Of a DNA stretch of 64,000 bases, positions 6,690 through 64,000 are shown one piece after another. Made by a program: the position numbers and the translations under genes. The first letter of the stretch is position 1. Every line of letters starts with the position of its first letter. Below the pieces are notes generated by a model. That model searched no databases, was not told the DNA's origin, and worked only from the letters and a program-made list of their open reading frames with translations. Source of the DNA: Cliona cf. orientalis (Eukaryota > Porifera > Demospongiae > Clionaida > Clionaidae); the NCBI GenBank assembly GCA_963930775.1, contig OZ005697.1, positions 7,400,292 to 7,464,291 of the forward strand, in the 5' to 3' direction.

Positions 6690-8580
6690 CCCTACATGAC
6701 AACAATAATAACAACAAAAGACAACAATAACAAGGAACTAAGTAAATTAAATATGCATAGACAAAAACTAAAGAATACAATAATTATTAGTAATTACAAT
6801 CGTAAGTTACAAGCAGAAACACATCACTAGGAGAGATGTTTATTTAATGCATGCTTAAATGATGCCAGAGAATTAATGGGGTTGATATCACAATTTAATG
6901 AGTTCCACAGGGCAGAAGTTGACGGGAAGAATGAATTTTTGAAATTATTTGTTCTAGCGAACGGTACAGATAGCTGAATGGTGTTAGCATGACGATTGGG
7001 ATAGAAGGTAGCTATCCTTTCCAGTGGTTTATCAGGGTAGGTGACCCTATCAGTTAAAATGTTATACAGTTGGCAGAGCTTTTGAAATTTTCTTCTATCT
7101 GATAGCGAAGGTAAGTTACATGACTTCAGAAGTGACTCGTAATCTGCGTTCCAGGTTTTTGAACATACTCTCAGTGCAAATTTTTGTACGTCTTCTATCA
7201 ACTTGATATCTTTTGCAAGATGAGGGTCCCAGACTACGCTAGCATATTCCATGTGGGGGCGAATTAACGACTTGTATAATTTTAAAAGTGTTGAGGGATC
7301 AGAGAATTGATAAAAGTTCCTATAGAGCAACCCTATTTGTTTTCGTGTTTTCTTACATACTGCATTAATGTGGTGTGACCAGGTAAGATCAGTCGAGAAA
7401 TTGACACCAAGGTATTTGAAATGATCTGTTTTATTGAGAGCATGATTTTCTCCGACATAGAGTGGAGAATCTGGTAGGGATGGATGATGCTTTCTAGAGA
7501 AGATCATATAACAACATTTCAAGAAGTTCAAGATAAGATGATTATCCACTATCCAGTTGCATATTGAAGTAATGTCTCCCTGCAGCAACGTGTAGTCCCT
7601 AGGATTTCTAATGATTTTGTAAAGAGCAATATCGTCAGCATATATTATAGTAATCTTACAGTCAGTTGCAGAGGCAGAGACTCCATTTATGTATATCAAG
7701 AAGAGCAGTGGCCCAAGCACTGACCCTTGTGGGACACCAGATACCACAGATAAAGAGGTAGATTGAGCTCCTCCTAATACAACTGTCTGAGTTCTGTCGG
7801 TTAGATAATTGCTGACCCATCTTATGAGAAAGGGATCGACATTAAGTTTAGAAAGTTTGTGTAAAAGTTGCTGATGGGGGACAGTATCGAAAGCTTTACT
7901 TAGATCGAAAAACACTGAGCAAACCTCGTTCCCACAATCAAGAGCTTCCTGGCAGTCGTGAGTGAAGGAGGTGAGGGCTGAGGTTGTTGATTTCCCCGAA
8001 GTAAAGCCCCATTGATGTTGTGATAATGGAGAGTACATGTTTAAGTGGCGAGATAAGAGATCATGCAGGTGTTTTTCCAGAAGTTTGCTCAGAATAGGTA
8101 AAATAGATATTGGTCTATAGTTTCCTGGATTTTCAGGGTCTCCTCCTTTTGGAATTGGAACTATTCTCGCAACCTTCCAGTCAGAGGGAAACTTCCCACT
8201 CTTTAGAGATGTATTAAATAGGTTGGTGAGGCTCTTCACTATGTATGGAGCAGTGGATTTAAGCATTTTGGCAGAAACACCATCTGCTCCCGTAAATTTG
8301 GTAGTATCTAGGGAAGTGATTAGAGAAAGCATCTTGTCCTCTGTGCACAGGAATTCCTCAGGAAAATTAGATGGGCTGAGGTTTTCAAAGTTATAGGTGA
8401 TACTACTGTCCCTAAGTGAGGAGGTTGCATGATTGAAGTTACTGAAACACTGATTATTAAGAATATTAGCTTTTTCCATGTCGTTACACACGGGACCAGT
8501 GTCAGGCATTCGAAGCACTGGGATCGAGGATTCCTTTCTGGTTACAATTTTGTATAGTTTCCAAAACGTTTTGGCATCAG
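6690..8580 (-). mobile_element. 5'-truncated non-LTR retrotransposon with reverse transcriptase
   Basis: The minus strand is open from about 8580 (first ATG at 8518) to 6827, about 580 residues with no internal stop. Reverse transcriptase motifs are in order: RPISILPILSKLLEKHL, QWGFTSGKST, FFDLSKAFDTVPHQ, SVVSGVPQGSVLGPLLFLIY and the catalytic YADD, followed by a thumb region and a typical tail (EYASVVWDPHL). No endonuclease domain precedes it, so the copy is 5'-truncated. The style is that of jockey/CR1-related LINEs; I do not assign a clade. The AACAATAATAACAACA-rich stretch near 6700-6740 is the likely 3' tail. The intact frame suggests fairly recent insertion. Confidence 0.85.
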
Positions 8581-43312: not shown

Positions 43313-46300
43313 TTAAATAGAATTGTTGACTGCGTTTCGGAGTTCGGTGGCTACTTGACCAAGTTCGCTGTCGTTGAGTAGTTCATAGAGACCCTCCCAG
43401 GTGGCAGGGTAGTGGCGGAGAGGGTGGTCCAGCCAGTGAGAGAGAACAGCCTCACAACACTCCTTGGCATTCTTCTCTCTTGCCCACACCTCAAGCTGCT
43501 GCCTGGGAACCACCAAGTTGCCAACATCTCTCCACTTGTGCATGATGGAGCTCTTTAGCTTGTACTTCTTTTCCTCTCCTTCCTCGTTCTTCCATCTGAT
43601 GACAGTGAGGTTGGCAGATGTGGGCTTAGCTGTCGCTATAGAATGTTAAATATTGGTGAAGATCATTCCACAATCACACTAATTGTAACTAACAATGCTC
43701 ACAAGTACCCAAGGCAATTTCATCTTTGGTGCTTCCAATGCACCTGTACTCGGCAATGTGGGGCAAATAAGAGCCTGCAATAACAAAGACAAATCTCAGT
43801 ATAAAAGTACGCTATAACTACATAAATTTATAATAGTATCTCACCAGCTGTGATCTTAGCGTGACCACCAGAAGAAGATGATGAAGCATTTGAAGCCGAC
43901 TTGCATGAAGCTGTTTGAGGACACAGACAATTATTATATAAACCGTCAATAAGATCGATAATATTGTTAGTTCAACATACCTTCAAACAAGACAATATGA
44001 TGTGGTTTAAGTGCATCAGATAATCGAGGATTGAGGTCACAGCGCCAGTACCGTCTGTCAGGAGTGAGAGTGGCTGTGTGCTGTTCGGTCCCTTCAGGAT
44101 GACCAGTGTGAGGGCAAAGGAAGGTCAGTTCGGGAACTGTCTCCTTGTAGCTCAGTGCAACGCAAGCAGAGTGGATACCATTGAGGATGGCCTGCCTGAC
44201 GAGAGTGGTTGCGCCGGTGTACTCTGAGGAGGAGGCTTGAGCTGTGATCTCGATGTGGACCTCGATGTAAGTGTTGGAGTCGATGACTGTGACCGTGCTT
44301 GGTGGGCTGGTGAGGAATTGCAGCTTGATGCAATTGCAATAAAGAGGCTCTTTGGAGTCGAGAAGCAGCTTCCACCCGTAATACCTGATGAGATGGACCA
44401 CAAAGCAGCAGAAGACTCCAGCACGTCGAGAGCGGTCTGGAAATCGAATAATGAGGGTGGCTATCGAAGCAGAAGAGACTCGATATCTCTCAAGCTGGGC
44501 CTCCAAGAGTGTCTCCAGAAGAGCAGGCATCACGTAATACTTTTGTGGCTTGGAACGCTGGACATTTACTGGTGGAGGGATTTCAGCAAACACCAGTAGG
44601 CTCTTTAGGAGCTCGGAAAGATGCTCCTTGGAGAAGATGCCAGGAAAATAGTGTGCTTGGAACTCATCTAAGCACTCTTCACTGACAACACCTTGATCTC
44701 GAAATAGCTTCCACGTTCCATCCACTGGTGAGATAGAGGAGGAAGACTCTGATGTGGCAGGTTGTCTCAGCTTGTAACTACGCTGGACAAGCTCGGAAAC
44801 TTTACTCAGAGGGATCTGGGAATCCACAAAGACCACACCCGGCAGGACGTCTGGAGTGTACTTGATGACATTGAGCTTGTTGAGAAACTCCAGAGCTGCA
44901 TCAAAGGAGTCTTCCTCAATGTTGAGCAAGCGAGCCATCTCGAGACACTCTGCCCTGCTGAGGATACCTCTACCCAGCTCCTTAGCCAGCTCCTGGAGTA
45001 GCAGCTCGAGGACATACCACCAGATGGGTACCTCCACCTCCTTAGCTCCTGACTTCTCTACGGAGTGCCTGACTGACTGAGCAACACTCTCCTCACGTTT
45101 GCCTGGGTTGAGAGCATCGACAGTGAAGAGCAGCTTCTTGAGGTCACTGGAGGAGTAGACCAGCTGATCCGAGAACTCGGGCTCAAGCATCTCCAGCAAT
45201 TTCTTATCCTTCTCTTCCAGTGTTTCGATACCACTGGACGTTGGCTGAGCACATGCTTCGCCAGATGCTGCCTTTGGTATCTGCTTGAGCTGTTTCTCCA
45301 GGAGGTCAAGATGAGTGCCAACCATAATTATCTTAGGTGGCTCTTCTTGAGTGGAGTAGGACTGGATGGTGTTGACAAGACACCTGATTGTGTCCTTTGC
45401 AGAGAGCTGGGAGTGCTGAGATGCTCCAACCTTTTTGCCGTCTTGGTAGTAGTCGACCACCTGGACCTCGTCCAGCTTGTCTGTGAGGCGAGTGACACAT
45501 ATAGCTGACGAGATGCTGCGAACAAACAGTGGTAGCAGTTCGTGATACTGAGGCTGCCCCCCACTATCTGTGAAGTAGACCCAGATAGTAACTGGTAGAG
45601 AGCTAATGGGACTGGCTGACTGTTCTCCACTCCTCAATTTATTGATTCGATACACTAGCTTTTCCATGATTTTCTTCATGGCCTTCTGACAAGCTTCAAG
45701 GGAGCCCGGTGATGCCATCTGTACTGATGCCACTGCCACAGATTTCTCTTGTGGCGTAACTCTTTTTATAGCTACTTCTTTATCGTTGCGCTTTGTGATC
45801 CAGTTCATAATCCTTGAAAAAACACCTTCACTCTTTCTCGTCTTCTGCTTTGAGGTACCCTGTGCTTCACTGGAACGGTTTGGTCCTAAAGGTTTTGTCT
45901 GGTCTGGTTCGACTGAGAGGATCATGGTGGCAATGACATCCAGCATTCCATCATCATCAACCTCCTTCCACTTTCCCTGCTCGTTTCTAACTCTCATTCC
46001 GGAAACTGTTCGAACTTCGATGCGTATGGGAGCTTCAGCACATGGGGTGCTGCTTCGAAGAGCCGGAGGCACTGGTGGCTTACTCAAGAGAAGATTTTTC
46101 AGTAATGTCTTTCCGACACCAGGTAGACCGAGGATGATGCAGACGAGTGTGATGACTCTTACGTAGCCAGCCTTCAATGCTTCACTAAGGAGACGCTGAG
46201 ATCGCTTGGACAATGACGATCCTGGAGTTATATTAATTAAGTAGCATGCAATTAATTTAGAATAATATAGGTACAGGTGAGTCACTAGTACACAATCTAA

Positions 46301-54729: not shown

Positions 54730-55008
54730 CTCTTGCTCACAAACATGATCTTCGTTTAATACATACGCAGCTACCTGCTATACACTCTCAATCACCAGTA
54801 TACTGTATCCAGCACTGATTCTGATCAGGTTATTAGTGAGAAGGATGAACCAACCCCCTTCGAGCATAGACTGGATACAGTGATTTCAAAAGCCGTCACA
54901 CAGTCGTCCCATCTAAAACCTATTGTGAATGATCGACTTCGTTCAATCATCAAAGTCAAACTTTGGCGCATGAAGAAGGAGCTTTCTAACCGTAACAAAC
55001 GACATTAG
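54509..55008 (+). CDS. N-terminal-only paralogue of transposase-like protein B (two exons)
   Basis: Exon 1 is 54509-54534 (MSTTVKIN plus two bases), followed by a strong donor gtaagt. Exon 2 is 54813-55008 after a ccag acceptor; phases agree and give 73 residues ending KLWRMKKELSNRNKRH. B1 (56154-58836) has the same layout: a short exon 1 ending TVRLSIN plus two bases before gtaag, and an exon 2 that reaches KSKLWRMGQLLDKH. Shared exon phase and similarity (PTPFEHRL...VNDRLRSIIKVKLWRM) make it a B relative that stops before the catalytic core. It may be a truncated copy or a stand-alone DNA-binding or regulatory protein. The intron contains a CT microsatellite. Confidence 0.5.
54681..54726. 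repeat. (CT)23 microsatellite
   Basis: Uninterrupted CT dinucleotides, preceded at about 54584 by an 11-14-base G run. Lies in the proposed intron of the small gene at 54509-55008, about 85 bases before its acceptor. Confidence 0.95.
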
Positions 55009-56153: not shown

Positions 56154-58836
56154 TTAATCTGTGGTATACTGACTCTGTGAAGGTTCATTGCTGACAGCTG
56201 TCATTTCCTTATTTGGGCATGTTTTTTTGTTGTGGCCACTTTGTTTGCATATTGAACAGGACAAGTTCCTCTTTTGTCTGATATTCCCTTGGTCTTCCAG
56301 TTCTTCGATGCGGTTCCTTTTGAGGAGCAGTTGATTGAGGGCTACAGAGTCTTTCTTTCGATGGTTTGTTGCTCTGAAGTAGTACTTTGTGGAGGTATCA
56401 TTGAGCTTTTCCATGCCCTGCTGTGTAAACTGAGTGAGATTGCCATAAAGGGTTAGGAATTCAGGAACGTGACATATGAATGAATGCATATATGGCGTCA
56501 CATGACGACTTTGGTAGACAGCAAGAAAGATAGACATCCATTGCTTGAGGTCAGCTTGTAGGTGGTCGATGTCGTCCTTAGAGAATGATTCTGCACAGAT
56601 CTGTTTGTATAGGTGGTAGAACTGAGTCCAAATTTCTTGCCGTTCTTCTACTTTGCTGAGTTCTGGGAAGAGAGTTGGAATTGAAATCCTCTGTAGAAGA
56701 ACATGCTTCTCAGGACCCATCAAATCTCTCCATTTAGCTTCTTTTTTCTCATTGATCATTATTTCAAATGGAATGCCACAATCAGTGTTGAGGAAGGCTT
56801 GAAATTTTGCCATATAAGGTAGCTTGGAAGGGTCAAACACCTTGAGATTGAGTTTTTTAAGTTCATCGTGCCGTTCCAAATCAGCTAAGAGCAAATTCAT
56901 GAGTACATCACTGATCCTCAGTAGGAGATGTAGTGTATCAATAACTACATGGCTGATTGAAATGGAAGGGAACAAGGGTTGCTCCACACAGCCATACTTA
57001 CTTCCACGTCGCCTTTTACTAGCCATTTCTTTGATCTCGGATATTGTCCTTGCTCCCTTTTCTGGATCAGTCACTGACCATAACTTAGAAATGTCAAAGC
57101 GCTGGTGGGAGGGACATTTGCACCATATGCAAGCGTATTCGCCATTTGCTGAGTTTAGTCCACAAGCCATGAGAAGAAATTTCATGTCACCACCCAGGAA
57201 AAATTCTATCATATAATTCTCCCCATCTACCTCCAATGTGGAAGTTGATTGGACCTCTTTGCAAACTTGATCAAGGCCACACTTGAGATGCTCATACTTT
57301 TCAGGTGCCTGTAGGATCGCAATTAAATGATTTCCAGAATCAGCTCGAGCCTTTTGTCCTTCATCCAGCAGAGTAAATGTGATATTTATTACATGTAGCT
57401 TTCTTCCAATCCTTGTCCCATCTGCACTGAGTTTGACACGTATGTGGTTATCTAGTGTTTGTTGCTGTGACAACCTTGCTTGCTTCAGAACACGAATTCG
57501 TGCATGCAATCTTGAACGCAAGGACTGTTGGACACCGACTGTGCCATCGGGTGTTGGAGAAATTACAAACTGGTCGTTGAGCTCAAGTTGGCGCTTCTTT
57601 AGCTCACATGAGCGAGGCATTGATGATGCTAGCATGCTCAATTCATGATAGGCTTTATCAGATATCCCATATTTCTCTTTCACATAGAGTAGCATGTCTG
57701 TTAAGGATTTCTCTGATTCGTCATCCCGTTGAAATCTGCTACTAGTAGAACATTCAGCTGCATGTCCATCACGCGGGTATGTAACCGTCAATAGCTCCCT
57801 AGTTTCCTTGTTCTTGAAGCTGATAGCAGTAGCTTCAAAGTGATCGTCAACATCCAATAGCCTGGCACTTACACGTTCTTTGAGTTCTTGTCTTTTTCGT
57901 TGCTGTTGTTTACCTGAATAGGATGTCCAATTTTTTCTCGACGTGCTTCGTCTAGTGGTATCCTGAGTAAGTATGTTCACTGTGTCTTTGAGTACTTCAT
58001 TTTCCTTCATTAACTCCTTGTTTTGTTGATCCAGCTTAATTCTTTTGACAGCCTCTAATGCCAATTGATCATCCTTTCTCTTCAGCATGCTGTGAATGGT
58101 TTGCTCGTGTAGGTCAGATCGATCCAATAGCAATTCCCACTGCTCGTTCTCCCACCTCTTTAAGATTGCAGATCGCTGATTTCCTCCTCGGTGCTTATCA
58201 AGTAGCTGGCCCATTCGCCACAGCTTTGATTTGAACCGGCCATATATCTTTTCAGTGATGTTCACACTCACACCGTGATGTGAAAATGTTTTAAGAGCAA
58301 CCCGGCATATTGCTTTTTGTACAGGGGTTGAATCTCCAGTGAGTTGATCTTCGTCAACATCACCCGTCAAATCAGTTGATGGGATTCCACTCTTGTTTGG
58401 ATGGGATATTGTAAACAGATAATGGCTGTGGACAATTAACGAAAATGTTATAGCAACATAAATTAATGTACACGCGCGTAATACACATAGCAGCACATGC
58501 ATAACATAAACATATGATATACAAATCAATAGTAATGCATGCTCATTGTAGCCACATGTTATAATCGTTCATAATGGGCATCTCCTCACACGCAATTATT
58601 AATATGCACTACACATGTACACAAGCAATTTTATTTTAGCTTGGCAGCATGCATACCAGCTAATGACATATAAATTTAAACAGCTGCTGTAGCCACAATA
58701 ATATCATGGTATATACCCTCATTAATATTAATAAGTGAGATATACTGCATTATACATCTTCTTACTTATTTATTGACAGTCGAACTGTATTCTCTTGATC
58801 GATAGTGTTTAGTCTTGTAGTATTTGCTTCGGCCAT
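56154..58836 (-). CDS. Protein B1: RAG1/Transib-like DDE transposase-like protein
   Basis: Two exons: 58836-58766 (MAEANTTRLNTID to SIN) and 58425-56154; phase-consistent, 780 residues. After a coiled coil (about 130-185) comes a core with D359 (KLSADGT), D437 (FFLGGDMKF), C456/C459 (CIWC), H671/H676 (MHSFICH) and E696 (QQGMEKLND). The spacings are D-19-C, C-x2-C, H-x4-H and H-20-E, equal to RAG1 D708-C727-C730 and H937-H942-E962. D-to-E is 259 against 254 in RAG1. A C-terminal knuckle at 747-760 (CSICKQSGHNKKTC) fits CX2CX3GHX4C, the tail motif of RAG1-like transposases. CACTA/CMC enzymes share part of this plan, so the exact superfamily is open. Intact, hence possibly active or domesticated. 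Confidence 0.75.
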
Positions 58837-58911
58837 TATGCATGGATGTTGTTTACTATGCTTACACCAACTAGTTAGCTATATTTGAGATTAAATTCTC
58901 AGTGGTGTCAC

Positions 58912-59148
58912 CTCTTGCCCTCCATTCGTCGTAGCTTGTAGAGTAGCCCTCGTAGTGAACTTTAACCAGCTATCGTACTTCGTCTTCGTCAACAACTCGT
59001 AACGGGTAAAGACGATCTGGTGATGCAGCTTTTAGTTTGACTCTTCGAGCCCTCGGTAATCGTAAATCATCCAGGTAGTTCACCGCTCGTCACCTTGACT
59101 CGTAATAGGTAAAGACGATCTTGTGACGCAGCTTATTTTTGCTCTTCT
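58912..59148 (-). pseudogene. Fragment of gene A beside the B1 start, partly duplicated
   Basis: 58912-59085 on the minus strand is a copy of the first part of A1 (VNYLDDLRLP to SYDEWRA), inverted relative to A1. GAG has become TAG in EVREL, giving a stop. Adjacent 59098-59148 repeats part of the same segment (actcgtaataggtaaagacg). The fragment ends in the upstream region of B1 exon 1 and has no downstream half. Probably a scar of nested insertion or inverted exchange between A/B units. Confidence 0.8.
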
Positions 59149-59753
59149 GCATGCATGAGTAGATATAGCTATCCTCGACAGATTCCCTCCAGTTGCCCGC
59201 GCTACACACATACATGCATGCATAGCTATTGTACATGATATTATTGTGTAAGATAAATGCCGCGTCACAAATTATAGCAGTGATAACAAAAAATTAATAT
59301 TCAAATAAGCGGCTATGGAAACCGCAATGCAGAGAGCTCCAAAGTAATGCACTGTATAATGTCCAATTTTACACAACTTTGTCCCTTCCGGAATTTAACA
59401 TCCTGGATATCAATATGAAGGGGAGACCCTACTTATTAAAATGTGACCCGTACTGAACGCGACCGGGCATTCCACAAGCTGATGATGTCATTGCAAGTTG
59501 ACACACCCCCTCATGTCAATAGTGTCAGTGTAATAATCGAAGATCGACGATTTTACACAGCTTATCCGCCGCTTTGGCCGAACCTCCTCGCTGCCAAAGC
59601 TTTCTTAGTCCTTATACTCTTCTTTTCAGACCGTACTGAATCGGATTATCTCTGAGAGTCTCCGTTCTGAAAGAAAAGGTAGATTTTTAACGGTCAATAC
59701 GGGTAGCGCAATCTATTTTTTATCGCGAAATGTCCCCCCAATTGTCATAATGA
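59149..59753. other. Spacer upstream of B2, no recognised gene
   Basis: Should hold the missing N-terminal part of B2, but I find no match to the B1 N-terminus. An open stretch at 59443-59655 has no recognisable domain and starts at GTG. No terminal inverted repeat was identified. Confidence 0.4.
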
Positions 59754-61854
59754 CAAAGGGAACAGATTTTTAATAAATGGAAACAAAGTACATGGGAACT
59801 GAGGTTAGAGGCTACTGAGGTACGATCAGCTCTGTGTGAAGAAAATGCTAAGCTTACCTGTGAACAGGAAAAACTGGCAGTGGACAAAAGCAAACTTCAA
59901 AATGAATTATTGTCGATGAAACAAGAGAAGGAATCTCTGCACTCGGAACTATTACAAGAAAAGCAACGAATAGTTGAGTTAAACAGTCAACTTCAATATG
60001 CACAAGAAAAAAGTGAGCAGCTGACAATTCAAAAGGAGCAAAAAATTATCGAGCTAGAACATGCACTATCACTGGAAAAAGAAAAAGCCGAAAACCTCAA
60101 AAGAGAATTGCCTTCACAGAGTACAGCATGCACCAATGCAAAAGGGCAGAAGCGAAAAAATTGGGATGAATATTCATCAAGGCATAAGAGATGAAAGCTT
60201 GAGGATGTCAGCAACAAAGCAAAACGAGCACTAAATGATGATCAATTTCAAGTTGAAGGTGTAACATTGAGAAATAAGGATACCGGTATAGTTCAATTTG
60301 TTGAAACAAGTATTGCAGCTGAGACTGAAAACAAAGAGAATAATCCTGGATGCCTAGAGCAGGTGTTATACACAAAGGAGAGATTTGGAATATCAGATGC
60401 AGCGTACCACGAATTAAGTATGGTTACGCCACAACTGCCCAGGTCATGGAAATTGAAGCAGCAATCCAAATCGCTGAATAAGCAGCGGGATGTAAGTCCA
60501 ACTCCTGACTGCACAACAGGTGTACAACAATCACTCCGATCACGTTTGGTTGAAAGAGTACAGCATCTATTATTGTCAAGTGGTGACAAGTCATTTGAGA
60601 AGAACAAACTACTCCGTGTTAAACTATCGGGTGACGGAACGTACCTTGGATCACTTCACGTTGTCACCTTTGGATTCTCTCTTATCGACGAAGGGTGTGT
60701 GGCCAAGTCTGCCACTGGGTATCATGTTCTGTGCATCCTAAAGGAGACTGAATCGTACGAAAGCATTTTTACCGGGCTTCGTGATGTAATCGAAGAAGTT
60801 TCAATGATCTCCCGTACGTGATGGTATTACCGTTCAAGAATGTCATTACGCTGTGAAATTTTATCTCGGAGCAGATTGGAAATTCCTGGCTATGGTATGC
60901 GGTATCGATTCTGCCAATTCCAAGTACGCATGTATATGGTGCACATGTCCGAAGGAAGATCGTCATGACACGACGAAAGAATGGTCAATTACCGACGTAA
61001 AAAAGGGGGCACGGACCATAGAATCGATTTCTCTAGCATCAAAACTTCCTGCCAAATCACCAAAAAAGTATAATTGCTCACGAATGCCGCTGTTCGAGGA
61101 TATACCTATTCTCATTATCGATGTTTTGCACCTTTTCTTAAGGATTGCAGATAATCTCATCAACCTCCTCATCACAGAGCTTCGAAGAATGGATGGTATT
61201 GATAGGTGCACATCCTTAGATAGAACTAAGGCTCGCAATGTCACTGAGTATGAGTTCTTTTTGCAAAACACATGCAAAATTCCATTTCGATTCTATATTT
61301 GCCAAGATTCACGTTCCTTGAAGTGGCGTGACTTATCTGGACCTGAGAAATACAAGTTATTTCGGAATGTTGATCTCACAAACCTATTTCCTAATCTTCC
61401 CAATGTGGAAATAGTACAAAGAATATGGACACAGTTTTTACTGTTAAATGAGTCGATTCGGTCGGAAAGCTTATCGCCTGCAGAGATATCTGTCTTCGCT
61501 TCAGATGCAAAGTCATGGCTACAACTTTTTCTGCAGGTGTACCAAACCAAATGTGTGACGCCATATATGCATGCATTAGTGTCACATATGCCACAATTTC
61601 TGAGCATTCATGGTGCTATAAACCCCTTCACACAGCAGGGTGTTGAGAAACTTAACGATATGTACACTCACTACTATTTTCACAGCACTAACCACCGAGA
61701 AAGCGATTCGCTTAAGCAGCTGCTTTTAAAGAAAAATCGATTGGAATACCTTGCCGATAATGGGTTTGAGCGTTCTAAGGAAAAGAATGTTTGTTCTTCA
61801 TGCAAAAAGTCTGGACACAATAAGAGAACCTGTCCGTTGACTCAGCATGCATGA
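59754..61854 (+). pseudogene. Protein B2: broken paralogue of B1
   Basis: Recognisable from 59754 (QREQIFNKWKQSTWELRLE, aligned with AILKRWENEQWELLLD of B1). A long coiled coil follows to about 60170, then KRKNWDEYSSRHKR. A TGA at 60192-60194 interrupts the frame. The same frame resumes through the first acidic motif (KLSGDGT) to 60821. A frameshift between about 60800 and 60850 precedes the second (FYLGADWKF). The rest is open: CIWC, HALVSH, QQGVEKLND and the knuckle CSSCKKSGHNKRTC. Catalytic and zinc residues all survive at the same spacings, so decay is recent. Two lesions and a missing 5' end make it non-functional as it stands. Confidence 0.8.
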
Positions 61855-62044
61855 TCGTTGAGCACAACCACTTTGACCCGCTCATTCTCACTTCATCATG
61901 AACTAGCCTTGAAAATGAATTATTGTTAACCAACCAGTATTGTTAAATAATCGTGTGTATTATTATAGTTATATTAAATGTTACTGTAATGTTGAAGAAA
62001 TTATCTTGCATAGAAATGTTATAATAATAATAATAATATTATTA

Positions 62045-62746
62045 TCACTGTAAAGAATATATTTTATGGAAGTCAGAAACCACACCATCACCACGAATAA
62101 AACTAAAAACTAGGGAGTAACCCTGAGAATATACACATTTTTTAGGTGTAGTGCTGTCGTTCGTAGGCTTATACTCCACTAGAGGTCTCCTAGCTCTAAG
62201 ATAGAAGTGAATTGTATCCAAAATTGCATAACAAAAGTCACCATTTTTATTGAAGCCTCGTACAAACCACTTTTGTCCAAGTAGGTCGTCTAAATCTGCA
62301 TATTTAGTTATAGTATAGATTTCCAGTCCTCTCTGTACCTTTTTAATCTGTCCACGTGTCTTTAAGCCACCATCATATAACACTTTATCAAAATCCATTT
62401 CAATCCGAACTTCTGGGGAAGATTTCTTTATATTTTGAAGCGAACGTTTTATTTTCAACACTAGTTCCTGATGAAGTGAGAATGAGCTTGTTAAAAGTGG
62501 TTGTGGAGGAGTAAGATCGACAATGTCTCCAAGGTCTCTCCACTCATCGTCGTTGCTGGAGTATCCACAGTAGTGAATCTTCACTCTTTCCGCATTTGTA
62601 TCCCTTTCCACAATCTCTATTGGATACAATTCATTCTTTCTTGCCCTTTTTGGTCTGGGGAGCTTTACAGTAGTTCCCTCACTCAGTAGCTTGTAATTGA
62701 CGCGTTTCCCCCTGGTGTTGTACACCTTCAGAGCAGACTCAGCCAT
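62045..62746 (-). CDS. Protein A2: chromobarrel-like protein, partner of B2
   Basis: 233 residues, single exon, ATG at 62746. Paralogue of A1 with strongly diverged sequence but the same order: basic N-terminus (RPKRARKNEL), chromobarrel-like segment (ELYPIEIVE, VKIHYCGYSSNDDEW, DIVDLTP; aromatics Y41, Y59, Y62, W69), then YDGGLKTRG, YADLDDLLGQKWFVRG, GDFCYAIL and FIRGDG. It has a short C-terminus without the His-rich end of A1. It faces B2 tail to tail, 190 bp apart. Intact although B2 is broken, so it may be retained for its own role or have had too little time to decay. Confidence 0.75.
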   Translation of the reverse strand: MAESALKVYNTRGKRVNYKLLSEGTTVKLPRPKRARKNELYPIEIVERDTNAERVKIHYCGYSSNDDEWRDLGDIVDLTPPQPLLTSSFSLHQELVLKIKRSLQNIKKSSPEVRIEMDFDKVLYDGGLKTRGQIKKVQRGLEIYTITKYADLDDLLGQKWFVRGFNKNGDFCYAILDTIHFYLRARRPLVEYKPTNDSTTPKKCVYSQGYSLVFSFIRGDGVVSDFHKIYSLQ

Positions 62747-63129
62747 TACTCAATGATAGTACAGTTTGCAGCTGTCAGAGAATACAATATCATGCAAGGT
62801 CAAAGGTGTGCACTTATCATTTGCATATTAATTATAGTTAATTATTATTCACCACAAACAAATTACAAGCAATTACAAGCTATGTCTCTTGCTTCTATGG
62901 GGCATGTTTTGTAATGTTGCTTGAGGGGAGAAGGTTGGGTTGATTTCAATAGAGAGCACTGCCATGCCCCACTTCCTACCTCATTCACTCTAATTAACTC
63001 CCTTGTTTGTTCTGTCCACAGCAGCTGTCTCAGTGAAGATAGATCTGATGTGATCGTACGCTATCCTTTGGTGGGGATGAAAGAGCTCCATTCCACCAGC
63101 GGATGTGACTGACCACTAGTGTATTAGCT
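62747..63129. other. Non-coding flank of A2
   Basis: Upstream region of A2. Contains a duplicated aattacaagc near 62860-62880 and no gene that I recognise. No inverted repeat matching the other side of the B2/A2 pair was found. Confidence 0.4.
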
Positions 63130-63480
63130 GGTGATTGTACATGCTTACATGTAGCCTACAATGTTTTGTATGCCATGGCCAGTTAATCAATGATTCTCAT
63201 CAACTCATTGAATAATACCAGAGACAATTATGGCATTACTGTGGTAGCTATGGGTAGTTTACCCAGTGAGTGGAAGTACATTGTACAACACATGTTCTGT
63301 GGTGTGTTGTGGTCTACACAATGCAAGCACACAAAGTCCCATTCCCAGTTCAGGTACATGCATGATGCAGGCATTGTATGTATAGAGGTAGCTACCTCCT
63401 ATTAGATTGTACTACGGTAGCAATAATAATTATTAATGATATGCAAGCACACGAGGTCCCATTCCCAATTCAGGTGCTTT
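63130..63480. repeat. Non-coding repeat shared with 42660-43160
   Basis: Landmarks aattatggcatt, cagtgagtggaagtacat, tgtggtgtgttgtgg, and cccattcccagttcaggtac (twice, near 63339 and 63454) recur in the same order at 42660-43160. Both lie immediately 3' of a death-domain gene on the minus strand, so the repeat probably spread with a gene-plus-flank duplication. Confidence 0.7.
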
Positions 63481-63810
63481 ATGATCGTATTAGATAAATT
63501 CCATTCGAGAAGGAAAACAAATCCAGATTGCTGGCTTGAGCCACCAACATCAGTACTAATTTTGTTAGAGAGAATGTGGGGGTTGTAGCTAGCTCGGTGG
63601 TTAGGGTGCTGATGGCTTAAGCCAGCAACCTATACATCTCGCTGCGAAGTTAATTTTGACGTAAAAAATAGAATTAAATTTTATCATCAACTAGAAACAA
63701 GTGCATAAAGAGAAAAATAGAAGTGAATAAGGTTTTTTTTCTCGAATCATAAGTAATTATAGCAGAAAATTATAGGTGATACAAAATGGAGACATGCACA
63801 CTAATCACTC

Positions 63811-64000
63811 TTAAGATGCTGACAGTGCACTTCGAATATCTTTAGCAAGAACTACCTGGTCTAAATCGTCAAGTAGTTTAATGAGAGTGTGCCATGAGCA
63901 AGGACTTAAACCATTTCCATTGAGCCAATGCTGGAACATGGCACGGCAGCAATCCACGGGATTAGTAGGATATTCGGCCTTGATCAGTGCCAGCCTTGAA
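63811..64000 (-). CDS. C-terminal death domain of a second gene (partial)
   Basis: The minus strand is open from the right edge to a stop at 63811-63813. It reads RLALIKAEYPTNPVDCCRAM, then FQHWLNGNGLSPCSWHTLIK, then LLDDLDQVVLAKDIRSAL. This aligns with the end of the death domain at 43313-43629 (CCEAVLSHWL, TWEGLYELL, QVATELRNAV). The upstream part is outside the window. The shared 3' flank repeat supports common origin with the death-domain gene at 43313-53342. Too short to say whether a GTPase or NACHT precedes it. Confidence 0.65.
   Translation of the reverse strand, partial: SRLALIKAEYPTNPVDCCRAMFQHWLNGNGLSPCSWHTLIKLLDDLDQVVLAKDIRSALSAS

Follow-up and report, generated by a model that had tools for sequence, protein, structure and literature searches.

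Two old, diverged copies of a probable two-gene DNA transposon with a RAG1-like transposase and a chromatin-reader-like partner in the sponge Cliona cf. orientalis

The window analysed here, a stretch of 64,000 nucleotides from the sponge Cliona cf. orientalis, contains two related transposase genes, T-A and T-B2 (collectively T), and two smaller related genes, C1 and C2 (collectively C). T and C lie tail-to-tail in both units (2/2). Candidate terminal inverted repeats and a candidate target-site duplication were found around the B2 unit. The original prediction had mentioned neither the convergent partner genes nor candidate transposon ends.

Features of the two transposase/partner units (positions are those of the window)
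Feature	Positions	Strand	Remarks
Partner gene C1	55188..55937	+	faces T-A tail-to-tail; 249 aa; suggested MBT/chromo-barrel-like domain at the N-terminus
Transposase A (T-A)	56154..58529	-	RAG1-like DDE open frame, 791 codons from TTG
Candidate 5-bp target-site duplication, left copy	58689..58693		GTAGC
Candidate left terminal inverted repeat, B2 unit	58694..58705	+	CACAATAATATC, begins with CACA like RAG/Transib ends
Broken copy of C1 residues 11-73	58898..59086	-	86% aa identity, one in-frame stop
Transposase B2 (T-B2)	59754..61854	+	T-A paralogue in three pieces: 59754-60194, 60195-60821, 60808-61854
Partner gene C2	62045..62746	-	faces T-B2 tail-to-tail; 233 aa; 43% identity with C1
Candidate right terminal inverted repeat, B2 unit	63232..63243	-	CACAGTAATGCC on minus strand, 9/12 matches to left
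Candidate 5-bp target-site duplication, right copy	63244..63248		GTAGC

The T-A reading frame stays open upstream to 58568 and meets a stop at 58569-58571. By look, the first ~40 residues resemble non-coding sequence, and the start codon is putative. Numbered along the 791 codons, the frame carries D370, D448, C467, C470, H682, H687 and E707, followed by a C-terminal CX2CX3GHX4C knuckle (C758, C761, H766 and C771). Spacings were 19 residues for D448-C467, 3 for C467-C470, 5 for H682-H687 and 20 for H687-E707. The RAG1 counterparts, which were checked on the RAG1 sequence, are D708, C727, C730, H937, H942 and E962, and the D-to-E distance is 259 in T-A (D448-E707) versus 254 in RAG1. All residues named in the original prediction, including the terminal knuckle, were present in the T-A frame, and its relative offsets (19, 5 and 20, with D-to-E five residues longer than in RAG1) were correct; its absolute residue numbers ran 11 below the 791-codon frame, or 2 below a count from the first ATG-coded methionine. 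Its description of the protein as intact holds for the T-A open frame alone, and the gene may have upstream exons.

T-B2 is degraded. Identity to T-A was 24% in its first piece and 44% and 49% in the other two, and the reading frame is interrupted twice: an in-frame TGA lies at 60192-60194, and a frameshift occurs near 60808-60821. Between them the pieces retain the two aspartates, the C2C and HH pairs, the glutamate and the knuckle, as had been predicted; with every listed residue kept but the frame broken twice, T-B2 therefore has the same layout as T-A and is not intact.

The relationship of T to RAG1 was most evident in global alignment. The T-A core aligned to mouse RAG1 with a score of 152, compared with a mean of 56.7 (sd 12.5, maximum 107) for 500 shuffles and 55.7 ± 11.5 (maximum 92.5) in a second shuffle set; the two tests gave z values of 7.6 and 8.4, respectively. 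Front and back parts of the core each exceeded their own shuffles (z 4.1 and 5.8). Six of the seven functional residues fell in register with RAG1; E707 was displaced by gap placement and was aligned on E962 in HMM alignments. The rear piece of T-B2 gave z 5.6 in global alignment with mouse RAG1, and its front piece did not rise above shuffles (z 0.36). Reversed RAG1, used as a control, gave z 0.2 by the same method, and z ranged from -1.0 to 0.65 for all five other proteins of the window that were aligned, each over its first 450 residues.

Database searches pointed in the same direction at lower scores. When a two-sequence T profile was searched against 177,635 PDB sequences, the best match was RAG1 (3jbw, E 0.0015 for the whole sequence), with the D/C2C and HH/E blocks in order and the functional residues matched. 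When the blocks were scored separately, the i-Evalue was 280 (3.4 bits) for D708/C727/C730 and 0.08 (15.1 bits) for H937/H942/E962. The profile matched uridylyltransferases as well, mainly via the zinc knuckle, the best of them ranking second (E 0.0017), and also RAG1L 6b40 (E 0.32); HzTransib was absent from its PDB matches at E ≤ 10. With the single T-A sequence, the best PDB match was again RAG1 (E 0.067). HzTransib is an accepted relative of RAG1, and as a yardstick the RAG1 core finds it at E 0.0058; like for like, the match from T-A to RAG1 was ten times weaker. In Pfam, RAG1 (PF12940) matched both T copies at E 0.0081 and 0.019 and was the sole enzyme family listed, both matches lying under the curated cut-off of 25 bits; overall, the database scores were weak (E 1e-3 to 1e-1). 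A trimmed core was needed for this result, the full-length T-A frame giving a knuckle match alone and no RAG1 match in Pfam at E ≤ 10. In hhalign, the T family scored 33.6 on RAG1, above the best of 60 shuffles (26.5), with a probability of 15.8% and 52 columns only. The profile search proposed with the original prediction came down on RAG1 in both PDB and Pfam, each match being weak alone.

An AlphaFold model of T built from a 3-row alignment reached a pLDDT of 36 and was too poor for superposition. Its elements ran in the order strands 313-318, 330-338 and 349-356, helix 364-378 and strand 388-396; in model numbering, D370 corresponds to residue 321, D448 to 399 and E707 to 658, and the glutamate lies within helix 651-660. 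This order of elements is as expected for an RNase H DDE domain. Foldseek with this model ranked RAG1 (6dbu_A) first of 350,542 chains (E 7.8e-3, TM 0.13-0.16) and placed HzTransib chains at ranks 3, 6, 7 and 16; no chain matched at E ≤ 0.001. Because Foldseek also uses residues, the ranking is supporting rather than decisive. The structural check gave RAG1 as its top match, and the superposition on the RAG1 core that had been proposed was beyond the quality of the model. The four tests, namely PDB profile, Pfam, Foldseek and global alignment, are partly independent, and global alignment alone is strong by itself. Judged from its sequence, T is homologous to RAG1 across the catalytic core. This upholds the RAG1 part of the original RAG1/Transib reading, and T may be either RAG1/Transib proper or a separate lineage.

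In T, the second D and the E of the DDE triad enclose C(2)C and H(3-4)H, an arrangement given as a hallmark of the whole CMCT clade in the available text of PMC12730594. The original prediction had cautioned that CMC transposases carry a similar C2C/H-H block, and the caution was sound: in the same text the layout is common to CMCT lineages (PMC12730594). Since this layout marks the whole clade, we assign T no finer than CMCT. Within CMCT, T is RAG1-homologous by a comparison that covered RAG1, RAG1L, HzTransib and CACTA. T could instead belong to another CMCT lineage, whether a named one (Chapaev, Mirage, ESTA or Lanisha) or one without a name. It would then remain a DDE transposase of the cut-and-paste kind, and its likeness to RAG1 would arise from RAG1 and HzTransib being the members with solved structures and profiles. 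To our knowledge, the profile libraries searched contain none for Chapaev, Mirage, ESTA or Transib. Besides the clade-wide zinc layout, such a placement is favoured by the account of ESTA, a lineage that was also recognised via HHpred similarity to RAG1 according to the available text of PMC12730594. CACTA, however, showed nothing. A CACTA tnp2 fragment gave z 0.1-0.3 against T in global alignment, and RAG1 itself gave z 1.6 against the same fragment. Transposase_21 (PF02992) was not listed for T in Pfam at E ≤ 10, a negative limited by the HMMER filters, which drop most matches above E 0.1. In hhalign, the T family scored 18.8 on the CACTA fragment, below the five best shuffles. By these scores RAG1 is nearer to T than the single CMC fragment tested (CACTA tnp2). 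The exact D-to-C distance of 19, the CX2CX3GHX4C tail and the convergent partner gene also point to the RAG side, and membership of another CMCT lineage appears rather doubtful.

C1 and C2 were identical at 96 of 224 aligned positions. A two-sequence C profile matched L3MBTL3 best in the PDB (E 4.3e-5), with further matches to L3MBTL1 (0.006-0.015), MRG701 and ARID4A (0.022) and PHF20 (0.43). We take the matched proteins to carry MBT, chromo barrel and Tudor domains, and the matched chains of PHF20 ('PHD finger protein 20'), of 66-88 residues, to be Tudor constructs. Among the 31 PDB matches listed, 30 fell on the N-terminal stretch, around residues 40-80; the remaining match, to 3tw5 (E 0.083), lay in the C-terminal part. 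In Pfam, C1 gave a weak match to Chromo (E 0.073) and C2 gave no match; neither protein had a kelch or PHD family among its listed matches in Pfam or the PDB. An AlphaFold model of C from a 2-row alignment was of low confidence and too poor to superpose. The profile matches suggest that the C N-terminus is a methyl-lysine-reader-like (MBT/chromo-barrel) domain.

Both genes are under constraint. pN/pS was 0.55 and 0.46 for T pieces and 0.52 for C, compared with 1.02, 0.99 and 1.06 for codon-shuffled pairs. Synonymous sites were saturated between the two T/C units; the units are therefore old, with both T and C kept under constraint.

Transposon ends were sought as inverted pairs that begin with CAC and come with a perfect 5-bp duplication, both published RAG/Transib hallmarks, and one pair was found for the B2 unit. 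The candidate unit spans 4,550 bp and would contain T-B2, C2 and the broken copy of the C1 start. Its start within the region upstream of T-A and its enclosing of a stray C1 fragment count against it. A second partial copy of the C1 start, at 59098-59140 (-), was also observed between the two transposases. At a limit of three mismatches, which was chosen after the B2 pair was first seen, such a pair arose in 0/400 dinucleotide shuffles of the B2 flanks, 1/400 of the A flanks and 7/400 of a third region, and in 29/4801 random pairs of real stretches. When the same spacing was slid across the window, the B2 pair alone was found, in 8 of 604 overlapping placements. The pentamer GTAGC is locally common: 58001-64000 contains 12 copies on the plus strand and 4 on the minus strand. 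With three regions tried, we put the chance origin of the B2 candidate ends at about 2%, and we regard the ends and the 5-bp duplication as candidates. For unit A, six CAC pairs were found at ≤3 mismatches (null mean 4.1), none with a 5-bp duplication. Other settings returned 14-nt pairs with ≤2 mismatches (6 for A and 9 for B2, none with a duplication >2 bp) and 12-nt CAC pairs with ≤4 mismatches (25 for A, where 10 plain shuffles gave 8 to 23, and 28 for B2). A 191-nt inverted pair at 55208-55398/58906-59096 was considered as terminal repeats and rejected; its left arm lies inside the C1 frame and no flanking duplication was seen.

These candidate ends bear on whether C belongs to the transposon at all. 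C might be an unrelated chromatin gene outside the unit, duplicated together with T by chance, and the two units known lie side by side, so that one inverted duplication explains the repeated order. C2 nevertheless lies inside the candidate ends (58694-63243), and C has diverged to a like degree (43%) as two of the three T pieces (44-49%), though joint duplication would fit the latter too. We regard a chance association as unlikely.

Our preferred explanation, with a probability of roughly 60%, is that the locus contains two copies, both old and diverged from each other, of a DNA transposon whose two genes encode RAG1-like T and chromatin-reader-like C. We infer mobility for a pair of which no third copy is known. 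Alternatively, the pair may no longer be mobile: a single inverted duplication would have copied a host locus made up of a domesticated transposase and its neighbour, selection would have preserved it, and B2 would now be in decay. That both units stand in mirror order within 8 kb, that pN/pS indicates constraint on T and C, and that the search around A returned no ends carrying a 5-bp duplication would all suit domestication. B2 is broken, however, and has candidate ends with a duplication; the C1 fragments beside T-A resemble transposon debris; and an active transposon under constraint gives the same pN/pS. We consider domestication improbable. As a two-gene transposon, the unit would be cut by T at its CACA-starting ends through RAG-type chemistry, by nick and hairpin, and transposition would leave a 5-bp duplication. 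The zinc sites of T would be expected to bind zinc, and its knuckle may contact the transposon end. C, in place of RAG2, would most likely tether the transposase complex to marked chromatin or steer integration.

Relatives were sought in several collections. Viral contigs yielded no relative with T-A, the two-copy profile, the motif pattern, the B2 piece, the C profile or the RAG1 core as queries, and a sequence-pattern scan of prokaryote genome contigs likewise yielded none; these contig scans work from short peptide patterns and are blind to distant relatives. The motif-pattern scan of the prokaryote contigs returned 17 loci, with tblastn matches at E 0.009, 0.011 and 0.69. Its two best loci were judged to be chance, one lying in what by look we take to be an RRM-like protein and the other having no overlapping plus-strand frame of at least 80 aa. 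Phages and plasmids gave no tblastn match, and PF12940 was found in neither of the two genomes examined. It is our impression that similar unnamed proteins occur in mycorrhizal fungi and cnidarians.

Other features were observed in the window. Upstream of C1, the end of a frame tail at 54811-55005 (+), ...KVKLWRMKKEL, resembles a stretch close to the N-terminus of T-A, ...KSKLWRMGQLL. The region was chosen by eye; its Smith-Waterman score was reached by 2/2000 shuffles, and BLASTP with the tail found nothing. An array of similar cysteine-rich, multi-pass-membrane-like frames of unequal length occupies both strands of 12516-40952. At 43967-46285 (-) lies a 772-aa frame with a P-loop-like GLPGVGKT, which by look we take to be GTPase-like and for which Pfam gave weak DUF4423 and nSTAND3 matches alone. 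A reverse transcriptase frame at 6827-8518 (-) (PF00078, E 5.1e-35) is presumably of non-LTR type, by look.

RAG1 is the enzyme that shuffles antibody genes, and its usual partner is RAG2, a kelch/PHD protein. How RAG1 and RAG2 became partners has long been asked in work on how adaptive immunity arose. We tentatively suggest that the sponge locus represents a non-bilaterian RAG-like two-gene lineage in which the role of RAG2 is taken by an unrelated Royal-family reader, such pairing having arisen more than once. If so, pairings of a RAG1-type transposase with a convergent reader can arise repeatedly, and the lineage would provide an outgroup for dating the CX2CX3GHX4C tail and the chemistry of CAC ends and 5-bp duplications. 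Our literature search, with subscription papers and Repbase (where the family may be described) outside its scope, found no paper joining RAG1-like, Transib and Porifera, and none joining RAG1, transposon, Royal family, Tudor and reader.

Among known systems, T has C(2)C and H(3-4)H in common with ESTA and the wider CMCT (CACTA/EnSpm, Mirage, Chapaev, Plavaka, Lanisha), as given in the available text of PMC12730594. CACTA differs in that its tnp2 had no match to T. The same text describes CMCT ends as 5'-CA..TG-3' in most cases, with 2-5 bp duplications, with which the candidate ends of the B2 unit would agree; ESTA differs, leaving TA duplications (PMC12730594). Transib, represented by HzTransib, resembles T in its DDE and C2/H2 zinc layout and in being among the top Foldseek matches, whereas the T sequence profile did not list it. 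The Cx2Cx3GHx4C C-terminal tail of T is as in invertebrate RAG1L and Subgroup I Transib, the tail of the latter being described as CTT1 (PMC9435367). In the published accounts available, RAGL is distinguished from Transib by having acquired RAG2L as a second gene.

RAG-like transposons are described in the available text of PMC7204232 as having convergent RAG1L-RAG2L genes, RSS-like TIRs, 5-bp TSDs and a Cx2Cx3GHx4C tail. The locus corresponds in gene order and tail and, as candidates, in its ends and duplication; its anatomy is therefore that of the RAG-like kind, the second gene being a different one. RAG1 and RAG1L carry an NBD with a GRP motif, and none was seen in the T-A frame, though a missed upstream exon may carry it; the spacing from first to second aspartate is 78 in T-A versus 108 on the RAG1 side. 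C resembles RAG2 in being a convergent second gene with a histone-reader-type domain, the PHD of one RAG2L binding methylated H3K4 in the text available (PMC7204232). No sequence relation between C and RAG2 was seen, however, the RAG2 domain being a PHD and that of C apparently a Royal-family MBT/chromo-barrel, with no kelch match. The ProtoRAG-type RAGL (RAG1L + RAG2L) shares with the locus a RAG1-homologous core with the seven catalytic/zinc residues, the CX2CX3GHX4C tail, a convergent second gene and, as candidates here, CAC ends with a 5-bp duplication; it differs in its partner, which is kelch/PHD and RAG2-like in RAGL and MBT/chromo-barrel-like in the sponge.
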